53,183 nt of DNA from positions 1-53,183 of the forward strand of contig JAFKLL010000037.1 in the NCBI GenBank assembly GCA_017304845.1, written 5' to 3'. The notes beneath the pieces are model-generated. The model saw only the letters and a list, made by a program, of their open reading frames with translations, searched no databases and was not told where the DNA came from. The translations under genes were made by a program, and so were the position numbers. Origin of the DNA: Solirubrobacterales bacterium. GTDB lineage: Bacteria; Actinomycetota; Thermoleophilia; Solirubrobacterales; 70-9. Numbering within the stretch: the stretch's first letter is position 1; each line of letters begins with the position of its first letter. This document shows positions 13,238 through 33,581 of the stretch, piece after piece.

Positions 13238-13271
13238 GTACACTCTGCGGACAAATTACCGCTATGCGCAC
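13238..13271. promoter_or_regulatory. tandem IclR-type operator A (VOC gene / catI divergent promoter)
   Basis: Two 15-bp boxes, GTACA-CTCTG-CGGAC (13238-13252) and TACCG-CTATG-CGCAC (13257-13271), are separated by AAAT. Box centres are 19 bp apart, as in the three other copies at 22871, 30094 and 33548. The half-sites resemble the GTTCG/CGAAC-type boxes known for PcaU/PobR-class IclR regulators. Confidence 0.65.
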
Positions 13272-13289
13272 ACTTTTGGAGGGGTGCGC

Positions 13290-13313
13290 ATGACCGATCG
13301 GGGACCGATTTGA
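13290..13313 (+). other. seven-codon leader ORF with strong ribosome-binding site, overlapping catI start
   Basis: ATG at 13290 is preceded by GGAGGGG (spacing about 7) and encodes MTDRGPI. Its TGA (13311-13313) overlaps the TTG start of catI (13310-13312). It could provide translational coupling for catI, which has no good site of its own. Confidence 0.45.
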
Positions 13314-14158
13314 CCGCAACCGCACCGCGACGGAGACCACCCACGTCCAGGCTCTTGCCCCTTGAGGAAGCGATCGGCAGCCTGCTCAATGACGGTGATT
13401 CAGTCGCCTTCGAAGGCTTTACCCACCTGATCCCGTTCGCCGCCGGCCAGGAGGCGATCCGCCAGGGCAAGAAGGACCTCGAGCTGGTCCGCATGACCCC
13501 GGACCTGATCTACGACCAGATGATCGGCGCCGGCTGTGCGCGGCGCCTCGTCTTCTCCTACGGCGGCAACCCCGGCGTCGGCTCACTCCACCGGCTGCGC
13601 GACGCGGTCGAGAACCAGTGGCCCGCCCCGCTCGAGCTCGAGGAGCACAGCCACGCCGGCATGGTCAACCGCTACATCGCCGGCGCCTCCGGCCTCCCCT
13701 TCGCCGTGCTCCGCGGCTACGCGGGAACCGACCTGCCGGACCACTCCGAGGTGGGCGAGGTCACCTGCCCCTTCACCGGCGAGGTGCTCTCCGCCGTCCC
13801 GGCGCTGCGGCCCGACCTCACCGTGATCCACGCGCAGCAGGCCGACCGCCAGGGCAACGTCCAGCTTTGGGGCATCCCCGGAGTCCAGAAGGAGGCGGTT
13901 CTCTCCGCGGCGCGCTCGCTGGTCACGGTCGAGGAGATCGTCGACGAGCTGACCCTCCAGCCGGGCGGGGTGATCATCCCCAGCTGGGAGATCGACGCCG
14001 TCTCCCACGTCCCGAACGGCGCCCAGCCCTCATACACCCACGGGTACACGACCCGCGACAACGACTTCTACCGCGAGTGGGACGAGATCAGCCGCAGCCG
14101 CGAGGCGTTCGGCGAGTGGCTCGACCGGCTCACCGCCGGAGAGGGGGACGAATCATGA
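13310..14158 (+). CDS. catI: 3-oxoadipate CoA-transferase subunit A (CatI type)
   Basis: A 282-residue alpha subunit. The segments VAFEGFTHLIPFAAG, LVRMTPDLIYDQMIGAGCARRL and FSYGGNPGVGSLHRLRDAVE are those of the CatI class of 3-oxoadipate CoA-transferase (glutaconate CoA-transferase superfamily), not the PcaI class. With CatJ it transfers CoA from succinyl-CoA to 3-oxoadipate in the cytosol. The only start close to the conserved N-terminus is TTG at 13310, overlapping the stop of a 7-codon leader. The stop overlaps the catJ start (ATGA). Controlled, by inference, by operator A and the downstream IclR protein. Confidence 0.85.
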   Translation: MTATAPRRRPPTSRLLPLEEAIGSLLNDGDSVAFEGFTHLIPFAAGQEAIRQGKKDLELVRMTPDLIYDQMIGAGCARRLVFSYGGNPGVGSLHRLRDAVENQWPAPLELEEHSHAGMVNRYIAGASGLPFAVLRGYAGTDLPDHSEVGEVTCPFTGEVLSAVPALRPDLTVIHAQQADRQGNVQLWGIPGVQKEAVLSAARSLVTVEEIVDELTLQPGGVIIPSWEIDAVSHVPNGAQPSYTHGYTTRDNDFYREWDEISRSREAFGEWLDRLTAGEGDES

Positions 14159-14880
14159 GCTTCGATTCCGCCGAGCTGATGACCGTGGTCGCGGCCCGCC
14201 AGCTCCAGAACGACCAGAGCGTCCTGGTCGGGGTCGGCCGCCCCAGCCACGCCGCGATCCTCGCCAAGCGAACCCATGCCCCCGATCTCGTGCTGATCTA
14301 CGAGTCGGGCACGATCGACGCCGACCCGGACTCGATACCGCTCTCGATCGGCGACCCCGAACTGGCCGCCACCTCGACCTCGGTGGTCTCGCTGCCCGAC
14401 ATCTTCAACTACTGGCTGCAGCCCGGCAGGATCGACGTCGGCTTCCTCGGAGCCGCCCAGATCGACCGCCACGGCAACCTCAACACCACGGTGATCGGCG
14501 AGTACGACCACCCCAGGGTCCGCCTGCCCGGCGCCGGCGGGGCCCCGGAGATCGCGCGCTCCTGCCAGGAGATCGTGGTCACCCTCCCCCACTCGGCCCG
14601 CACCTTCGTGCCCGAGCTGGACTTCACCACCTCGCTCTGCCGCTCCGACGGGGAGGGCAGCATGGTCGTGGTCACCGACCTCGGCGTGCTCGAGACCTCG
14701 GACCAGCACGACGAGCTGGAGCTGACCGCGACCTTCCCCGGCATCGGGGTCGGCGAGGTCCAGGACCAGACCGGCTGGGAGCTCAAGGTCGCCGGCGACG
14801 TGGCCGAGGTCGCGCCGCCGACGGCGGAGGAGCTCGAAGTCCTCCGGTCGCTCGGGTCGAAGCCGAAGGCGGTGCGCTGA
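14155..14880 (+). CDS. catJ: 3-oxoadipate CoA-transferase subunit B (CatJ type)
   Basis: A 241-residue beta subunit. L-I-Y-E-S-G carries the catalytic glutamate that forms the glutamyl-CoA thioester in this superfamily. The segments LSIGDPELA, NYWLQPGRIDVGFLGAAQID and NLNTTVIGEY...RLPGAGGAPEIA agree closely with CatJ-type subunits. ATGA overlap with catI and TGATG overlap with the thiolase show a tightly coupled catI-catJ-thiolase operon. This operon performs the last two steps of the beta-ketoadipate pathway. Confidence 0.87.
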   Translation: MSFDSAELMTVVAARQLQNDQSVLVGVGRPSHAAILAKRTHAPDLVLIYESGTIDADPDSIPLSIGDPELAATSTSVVSLPDIFNYWLQPGRIDVGFLGAAQIDRHGNLNTTVIGEYDHPRVRLPGAGGAPEIARSCQEIVVTLPHSARTFVPELDFTTSLCRSDGEGSMVVVTDLGVLETSDQHDELELTATFPGIGVGEVQDQTGWELKVAGDVAEVAPPTAEELEVLRSLGSKPKAVR

Positions 14881-32429: not shown

Positions 32430-33278
32430 TTGATCTCGGTCCTCCTCGGCGCCGCCGCGGCGCTCTGCTGGGGCGTCCAGAACGTGCTGTTGGCCGGGGT
32501 CGCCCGCAAAGGCGATCCCGGCGTCGCCTCCTTCTGGTACGTCGGCTACATGGCGCTGCTGGCCCTGCCCTTCGCCGTCGCCACCTGGGATCCGTCGGAG
32601 CTCGAGGGCGGCGCCGCCGGCTACCTGGTCCTGGCCGGCGTGGTCCAGGGGCTGGGCATGCTGTTCTTCACCCGCGCCCTGGCGATCGGGCCGATCGGGA
32701 TGCTGACCGGGCTGCTCTCGTTGGAGGGCGCCGGGGCGGCGATCCTCAGCTTCGTCGCCGGCGAGGCGATCGGCGGCCCGGTGGCGGCCGGCCTGGTCCT
32801 CTGCTCGGCCGGCGGCGTGCTGCTGGTCGCGGCGCGGGCCGACGACGTGCCGGGCCGGAGTGTCGGGCTGACCATGTTCGCGGTCGCCTGCAACGCGGCC
32901 GGGCTGTTCTCGCTCGGCTACTACGAGGTGAACCTGGCCCTGACCATGGTCATCTTCAACGGCGCCTCGGCCGCGGTGATCGCCGGGCTGCTCAAGGTGC
33001 AGGGCGGCAGCCCCCCACTGACCGAGGGGCATTTCGAGTCGCGAGGCTCCGAGGCGATGCCGATCCTGATCTCCGCCCTGGGCCTGCTCGGGCTGGTCGC
33101 CTTCACCTACGGCTCGCGCGAGGGCTCGACCGCGGTCACGGCCGTGCTCTCGGCGCAGTTCGCGGGGGTCGCCGCGATCGGCGGCTACCTCCACTTCAGC
33201 GAGAAGATGGAGCCGAGGCAGATCCTCGGCTTCGGCATCCTCGTCTGCGGCGTCAGCCTGGTCGCCGCCTTCGCCTGA
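32430..33278 (+). CDS. EamA/DMT-family transporter
   Basis: A 282-residue, strongly hydrophobic protein with about ten transmembrane segments in two EamA-like halves (starting ISVLLGAAAALCWGVQNVLL and, in the second half, VGLTMFAVACNAAGLFSLGYY). The start is TTG at 32430, 19 bp after the SDR stop, with no clear ribosome-binding site. It is probably the third gene of the aldehyde dehydrogenase operon and may export or import a pathway metabolite. It converges on tatA with a single base between. Confidence 0.82.
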   Translation: MISVLLGAAAALCWGVQNVLLAGVARKGDPGVASFWYVGYMALLALPFAVATWDPSELEGGAAGYLVLAGVVQGLGMLFFTRALAIGPIGMLTGLLSLEGAGAAILSFVAGEAIGGPVAAGLVLCSAGGVLLVAARADDVPGRSVGLTMFAVACNAAGLFSLGYYEVNLALTMVIFNGASAAVIAGLLKVQGGSPPLTEGHFESRGSEAMPILISALGLLGLVAFTYGSREGSTAVTAVLSAQFAGVAAIGGYLHFSEKMEPRQILGFGILVCGVSLVAAFA

Positions 33279-33279
33279 G

Positions 33280-33504
33280 TCAGACGGTCTCGGCCTTGGT
33301 GGGCTGGGGCGCGGTCTCGGGTTCGGGGGCGGTCACCGCCGCCTTCTCTTCCTCGTCGTCGTGCTTGCCGCTCAGCCCGGCGCGGAACTCGGTCAGGCTC
33401 TTGCCGGCCGAGCGACCGAGCTCGGGCAGCTTCTTGGGGCCGAAGATCACCAGCAGCAGGATCAGGACGATGGCGACTTCCATGGGTCCGATGTTCGGGA
33501 TCAC
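33280..33504 (-). CDS. tatA: Sec-independent translocase subunit TatA
   Basis: A 74-residue protein: a short N-terminus, one membrane helix (VAIVLILLLVIFGPKKLPEL), the hallmark F-G-P-K-K-L-P-E-L-G hinge, an amphipathic helix RSAGKSLTEFRAG and an acidic tail. It forms the Tat pore. The start is GTG at 33502-33504 with GAGGAG at good spacing. No tatB or tatC is nearby. Its own tandem operator (33548-33581) places it in the catabolic regulon, whose binding lipoprotein carries a twin-arginine signal. Confidence 0.92.
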   Translation of the reverse strand: MIPNIGPMEVAIVLILLLVIFGPKKLPELGRSAGKSLTEFRAGLSGKHDDEEEKAAVTAPEPETAPQPTKAETV

Positions 33505-33547
33505 GTCACTCCTCCTCGTTCGATGCGTTCCAGAAAGGATACGCCTC

Positions 33548-33581
33548 ATTCGCATAGCGCGCAAGTGTTCGTTCTACGAAC
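33548..33581. promoter_or_regulatory. tandem IclR-type operator B (upstream of tatA)
   Basis: Boxes ATTCG-CATAG-CGCGC (33548-33562) and GTTCG-TTCTA-CGAAC (33567-33581) are joined by AAGT. The second box is a perfect palindrome in its 5-bp arms. It lies 44 bp upstream of the tatA start and overlaps the end of the thioesterase gene. Confidence 0.68.

Follow-up and report, generated by a model that had tools for sequence, protein, structure and literature searches.

The stretch considered here (the window) comprises 53,183 nucleotides of a Solirubrobacterales bacterium (assembly GCA_017304845.1, contig JAFKLL010000037.1). It carries an island of 20 genes from 12240 to 33504, including genes for a class III aminotransferase, glycine-decarboxylase-like subunits (GcvPA and GcvPB), an aldehyde dehydrogenase, a polyamine-type ABC transporter, a CoA-transferase with a thiolase, and an additional TatA. 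Four 34-bp elements lie among these genes (Table 1), which by their strands and gaps appear to form six transcription units around them. The set is real and conserved, its kind of operator is known, and in the genome of the bacterium it is restricted to one cluster. Its members probably serve as operators for the PcaR-type IclR protein of 16178-17020, which would control the 20 genes as one cluster. A probability of about 0.75 is given to this reading, in which the binding is predicted from sequence.

Each element consists of two 15-bp boxes, the centres of which are 19 bp apart in all four cases. The tandem arrangement and the positions were claimed by an earlier note on this DNA and were verified letter by letter. 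Its list of 14 columns invariant across the four operators was complete; 12 of the 14 remain invariant when the counterparts from a genome of the same genus (G010) are added. Its description of GTTCG-TTCTA-CGAAC as a perfect palindrome holds for the arms and not for the whole box. With leave-one-out matrices, the held-out operators 1-4 scored 12.7, 19.4, 29.7 and 21.3 bits, and the best places outside the four coordinates reached 8.2, 8.4, 8.1 and 10.3 bits, respectively. The 8.4-bit place overlaps operator 2, and the best one away from that operator has 6.8 bits. All higher-scoring places were training sites or reverse complements of the four coordinates. The matrix of all four sites gave at best 5.6 bits elsewhere.

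A sequence-only model (R1) was built from eight sites, four of the window and four of G010. At E<=10, it found no place beyond the four in the 2.49-Mb own genome (about 75% complete) and solely the four counterparts in G010. As R1 was trained on these sites, their own scores follow from the way it was made, and the information lies in the lack of any others. Sites in the missing parts of the incomplete own genome are possible, and the scan would miss weak or single-box sites. The motif scan suggested by the earlier note thus returned no stray sites in the own genome; its extension to related genomes gave confinement in G010 and matches on further contigs in three others (see below).

By position, all four sites are upstream of cluster genes, as was noted earlier. 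In addition, operator 3 is centred at 30110.5, on the ATG (30110) with which the aminotransferase probably starts; a second ATG in the same frame is at 30137. Operator 4 shares eight bases with the end of a thioesterase-type gene (33574-33990, minus strand). All four operators are syntenic in G010. The letters and near flanks of operator 2 have diverged there with the motif kept (19.1 bits with a window-only matrix). Operator conservation as a mere by-product of conserved flanks was rejected, the motif of operators 2 and 4 being preserved where letters and flanks diverge. Further weak boxes stand in register at operator 2 of G010.

In a search of 232 genomes of the order with the aminotransferase, 13 matched at E<=1e-150, the own genome and G010 included. 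The flanks of the other 11 genes, none of which had been seen by the matrix, were fetched. The element beside the aminotransferase recurs in 12 relatives, G010 and these 11. In each of these 11 loci, taken over the whole length fetched, the highest score (21.1-38.7 bits) belongs to a place near the aminotransferase start. Counted ungapped, the site centre is at +0.5 to -21.5 of the window-equivalent start codon in 11 of the 13 genomes, at -66.5 in G192 and at -109.5 in G148. When single boxes were located in the 11 other loci with no spacing assumed, 31 of the 60 strong pairs within 8-60 bp were 19 bp apart, the next commonest distance occurring four times.

The run of IclR, dehydrogenase, GcvPB, GcvPA, NAD-kinase-like and aminotransferase genes is present in nine of the 11 further genomes. 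In G148 and G187, where the contig stops at the aminotransferase gene, a homologue of the regulator (52% and 55%, respectively) is encoded on a different contig, so that all 11 have one. The aldehyde dehydrogenase stands across the operator from the aminotransferase in seven of these relatives. The transporter beside the operator varies, being a polyamine-type ABC system in the window, an amino-acid permease in G192 and G201, and a family-3 binding protein in G097. A scan with the NAD-kinase-like protein over 396 genomes, sampled evenly across the phylum, gave two matches at E<=1e-45, in the own genome and in G052, thus showing no spread beyond the order in that sample. Upstream of the amino-acid permease gene of G201 (L071 2707-2778), four boxes follow one another in exact 19-bp steps.

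The presence of the motif follows that of the regulator to a large degree. At E<=1, R1 gave a match in 10 of the 11 aminotransferase genomes, each time including the aminotransferase-side site. No match at this threshold was obtained in nine hand-picked genomes outside the 13 aminotransferase matches, whose IclR proteins are at most 34% identical or absent in the regulator search. One match each was found in G053, where genes for CoA-transferase A and B and a thiolase are close to a PcaR-type gene, and in G034, where a PcaR-type gene is near a CoA-transferase A piece at a contig end. In the 11 island loci, there was no CoA-transferase or thiolase match at E<=1e-15. The genus of the window therefore seems to have joined both modules under one island-type regulator. 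The 40-kb locus of G192 itself contains three extra matches; two stand upstream of AA_permease and TauE genes and the third between a VOC and a luciferase-like gene. Chance origin of the operators was rejected on the basis of the leave-one-out margins, the genome scan, the sites of the relatives and the pattern of presence and absence.

The regulator belongs to the PcaU/PobR-type class named in the earlier note, passing the PcaR/PcaU/PobR model TIGR02431 narrowly (287.7 bits, curated cut-off 284.75). It matches PcaR of Pseudomonas putida (PDB 8eju) with 172 bits over residues 13-267, and its recognition helix reads IPRAAARRFL versus IPRAAVRRCL in that protein. The helix arginines R-x-x-x-R-R (RAAARR here) are the same in 8eju and in 16 other aligned regulators, one of which has RGTTRR. 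In the covered parts of the PcaR study (PMC12455658), succinate is contacted by Y151, T177, S240, N257 and S259, and the T177S and S240A variants act like wild type. Four of these five contacts are the same in the window protein (Y138, T163, N243 and S245 for Y151, T177, N257 and S259), with A226 replacing S240. Among 17 aligned regulators, position 226 is A in 12 (nine island proteins, the window, G010 and one more of G052) and S in five (G053, G034 and three of a further clade). The five S-bearing proteins stand apart from the rest in the regulator tree (support 96/94), in which nine of the 17 inner branches are drawn open.

The operator format is already known: of the 181 IclR orthologous groups treated by Suvorova and Gelfand (2021, PMC8222616), 94 have predicted tandem palindromes with centres 18-22 nt apart. 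The parts of that paper covered here also give GTNCG-N5-6-CGNAC boxes for PcaR, PcaU, PobR, CatR and others, and site centres that peak at -3 to +1 of gene starts. The window operators are alike in their 19-bp spacing and in the placing of operator 3 on a likely start; their type fits this family, as claimed earlier, and corresponds to the IclR group-1 format of that paper. The same parts do not describe this regulon; a related group may be listed in the supplementary tables. PcaR of P. putida is alike in family, recognition helix, succinate contacts and GTTCG/CGNAC-type boxes, whereas it controls p-hydroxybenzoate/pca genes (PMC12455658) and the window regulator would control an aminotransferase/transport island.

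Among the matches listed, open-licence PMC titles included none on this regulon, either for a GcvPA/GcvPB/AcoX/aminotransferase cluster and IclR with Solirubrobacter or regulon, or for IclR with gamma-aminobutyrate (GABA) catabolism. Thus, of the earlier finding, it is the content of the regulon and not the tandem format that is new. As far as the searches show, the novelty is a regulon joining an aminotransferase, a succinate-semialdehyde-dehydrogenase-type enzyme, glycine-decarboxylase-like genes, a polyamine-type transporter with a Tat-type binding protein, an extra tatA and a CoA-transferase/thiolase set. In Agrobacterium, the IclR-type regulator BlcR controls the blcABC operon, the pathway of which passes through succinate semialdehyde. 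The window regulator matches a chain described as the blcABC repressor only distantly (60.5 bits). GabR of Corynebacterium glutamicum controls GABA use in an actinobacterium and is of PucR type, not IclR (PMC7652997, in the parts covered).

A possible mechanism can be outlined. Each operator would be occupied by two regulator dimers, spaced 19 bp and bound to the same face of the DNA, and the promoters would thereby be blocked. Without effector this would cause repression, most plainly at operator 3 with its centre on the likely start codon. An amine or omega-amino acid, as gene content suggests, may be taken up by the polyamine-type ABC transporter and transaminated; the semialdehyde could then be oxidised to a dicarboxylate, feeding the CoA-transferase/thiolase pair. 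The pocket residues point to a small dicarboxylate as the effector, such as succinate or a 3-oxoadipate-like acid. A dicarboxylate produced by the pathway would lift the repression or make the protein an activator, so that uptake, transamination, oxidation and CoA-linked cleavage would rise together. As judged from gene order, the regulator gene belongs to the operon that operator 1 precedes, and the protein may thereby limit itself by autoregulation. The extra tatA under operator 4 might help to export the Tat-type binding protein under operator 2.

Such a candidate regulon provides a little-studied actinobacterial order with an operator sequence, a regulator and a predicted effector class. 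The operator persists while neighbouring transporters are swapped, which helps to predict the role of the GcvP/NAD-kinase-like run. If the link to tatA is true, export machinery is controlled by the regulator of its cargo. A wider evolutionary reading is more tentative, and somewhat doubtful at present: a PcaR paralogue could have left aromatic catabolism and, as a sensor of dicarboxylates, become the switch for an island of Solirubrobacterales that turns amines into succinate, after which one genus annexed a beta-ketoadipate-type CoA-transferase/thiolase and a dedicated tatA. Two pathways that were once separate would then come under one regulator, together with a transporter and the machinery that exports its binding protein.

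Table 1. Operators and genes of the island in the window. Transcription units (1-6) are suggested by strands and gaps; G010 is the genome of the same genus.
Feature	Coordinates	Strand	Unit	Remarks
VOC/glyoxalase-fold protein, two-domain	12240..13166	-	1	Pfam PF00903
Operator 1	13238..13271			between VOC gene (ATG 13166, -) and CoA-transferase A gene (~13310, +); 32/34 letters same in G010
CoA-transferase subunit A, glutaconate-CoA-transferase-like	13310..14158	+	2	start codon inferred
CoA-transferase subunit B	14158..14880	+	2	Pfam PF01144 in open frame ending 14880; start inferred
Thiolase, 3-oxoadipyl-CoA-thiolase-like	14880..16064	+	2	below that equivalog cut-off
PcaR/PcaU/PobR-family IclR regulator	16178..17020	+	2	TIGR02431; Pfam IclR_C, HTH_IclR
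SDR1, short-chain dehydrogenase	17036..17821	-	3	domain match
PotA-like ABC ATPase	17808..18986	-	3	domain and family matches
PotB-PotC-like permease, fused	18983..20737	-	3	domain and family matches
PotD-like substrate-binding protein (SBP)	20789..21994	-	3	Tat-type lipoprotein leader (TRRQFI ... LAAC)
SDR2, short-chain dehydrogenase	22074..22820	-	3	domain match
Operator 2	22871..22904			upstream of SDR2-SBP-PotBC-PotA-SDR1 run (-); 19/34 letters same in G010
SDR3, short-chain dehydrogenase	22917..23807	-	4	domain match
3-hydroxyacyl-CoA dehydrogenase / lambda-crystallin-type dehydrogenase	23738..24658	-	4	start inferred
GcvPB-like glycine decarboxylase subunit	24670..26140	-	4	reading frame broken near 25940
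GcvPA-like glycine decarboxylase subunit	26164..27564	-	4	
NAD-kinase-like protein	27578..28708	-	4	Pfam PF01513, PF20143
Class III aminotransferase	28710..30110	-	4	closest solved relatives named 4-aminobutyrate transaminase
Operator 3	30094..30127			between aminotransferase (-) and aldehyde dehydrogenase (+); 34/34 letters same in G010
Aldehyde dehydrogenase, succinate-semialdehyde dehydrogenase subfamily	30168..31643	+	5	Pfam Aldedh; TIGR01780 691.5 bits, cut-off 646.35
SDR4, short-chain dehydrogenase	31640..32410	+	5	domain match
EamA-type transporter	32430..33278	+	5	domain match
Additional TatA	33280..33504	-	6	
Operator 4	33548..33581			upstream of tatA (GTG 33504, -); 26/34 letters same in G010

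The sites could belong to another regulator of the genome, the PcaR-type gene being a mere neighbour. There are 12 HTH_IclR matches in the genome, and IclR motifs resemble one another (PMC8222616). However, the two other IclR proteins found in the own genome with this regulator are only 25% and 23% identical, the nine genomes with distant or no IclR proteins are without the site at E<=1, and the recognition helix suits the family of the motif; this explanation is regarded as very improbable. An ordinary beta-ketoadipate regulon, with the CoA-transferase and thiolase as the pca/cat lower pathway and the rest serving aromatic degradation, would agree with the regulator family, with a thiolase closest to 3-oxoadipyl-CoA thiolase models and with the PcaR-type genes near CoA-transferase genes in G053 and G034. 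Yet the thiolase and both CoA-transferase subunits are below the pathway-specific cut-offs, and the conserved partner of the operator is the aminotransferase/GcvP run. Intradiol dioxygenase had no match in the own genome (about 75% complete) and one partial above-cut-off match in G010, other ring-cleavage families not having been searched. The statement of the earlier note that this appears not to be a standard beta-ketoadipate arrangement is supported, and an aromatic regulon appears rather improbable, with the CoA-transferase/thiolase genes as a possible beta-ketoadipate branch.

Operator 4 may be a relic or may serve genes lost from this genome instead of tatA. Beyond this site, G010 carries different DNA of about 5.3 kb with amino-acid-decarboxylase-like and DAO-type oxidoreductase genes; a TatA match is found in none of the 11 further island loci, and the TatA of G034 (9005-9193 of its contig) has no listed site beside it. 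Against this, the distance from operator 4 to the tatA start is about 60 bp in both genomes, and the Tat-type lipoprotein leader of the binding protein encoded downstream of operator 2 is kept in G010. This alternative is considered unlikely.

Several observations weigh against control of the whole cluster by the PcaR-type protein through these operators. By eye, only one of the eight boxes fits GTNCG-N5-CGNAC exactly and the inner arms are weak, with CGNAC on the right in five of eight and GTNCG on the left in three of eight. In the control of five mononucleotide shuffles per locus, single-locus maxima reached 18.3 bits, and sites below about 20 bits are consequently insecure one by one. G144 has the regulator and the aminotransferase, yet no R1 match at E<=1; its site scores only 21.1 bits, with shuffles of the locus up to 15.3. 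The aldehyde dehydrogenase is not across the operator in G148, G200, G201 and G144. Seven R1 matches (E 0.05-0.95) are on non-island contigs of G067 (C153:29649, C80:913, C41:2257), G052 (C12:10760, C28:2825, C11) and G148 (C129:14242). They may mark additional genes of the regulon, belong to PcaR paralogues or have arisen by chance; only that on C11 of G052 was looked at, being near another PcaR-type gene, and confinement to the island is thus shown for the own genome and G010 alone. The window and G010 regulators group with the island regulator of G067 with weak support (86/64).

Further points of this kind concern the genes. Most assignments of genes to units are based on gene order alone. 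Orthologues of SDR1 and SDR2 were absent from the 80 kb of G010 examined (best identities to other SDRs 35% and 38%, respectively), and genes other than these two come after the transporter there. The GcvPB-like gene has a frame change and a missing stretch at 25872-26140 (minus strand) in comparison with the single open frame of G010, which is either an assembly error or decay. A separate GcvPB match (700 bits) is found elsewhere in the own genome, and the GcvPA/GcvPB pair of the island may act on glycine or on another substrate.

As to the individual products, the aminotransferase exceeds the cut-offs of general aminotransferase models only. The VOC and NAD-kinase-like proteins had no solved relatives by sequence; the latter is AcoX-like. 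The leader of the binding protein is taken to be of the twin-arginine (Tat) type from its motif. The gene of this protein and the extra tatA are both downstream of operators of the same set, and a second TatA/B/E match of the own genome lies at G000:C5. Ahead of the CoA-transferase start and out of frame with it, there is a short reading frame (13290-13313) that opens with ATG and has a good ribosome-binding site, in a stretch that by eye differs in G010. Around the island of G010 (L042 9047-12255, L043 7455-10359), genes other than those of the window include a luciferase-like monooxygenase, an acetamidase-type protein, a class V aminotransferase, a DAO-type oxidase and a decarboxylase fused to a VOC domain. 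Just beyond the island of the window, 34797-37472, 38196-40208 and 40888-44034 encode large proteins with Ig-like, carboxypeptidase-regulatory and RTX/laminin-G-type domains.

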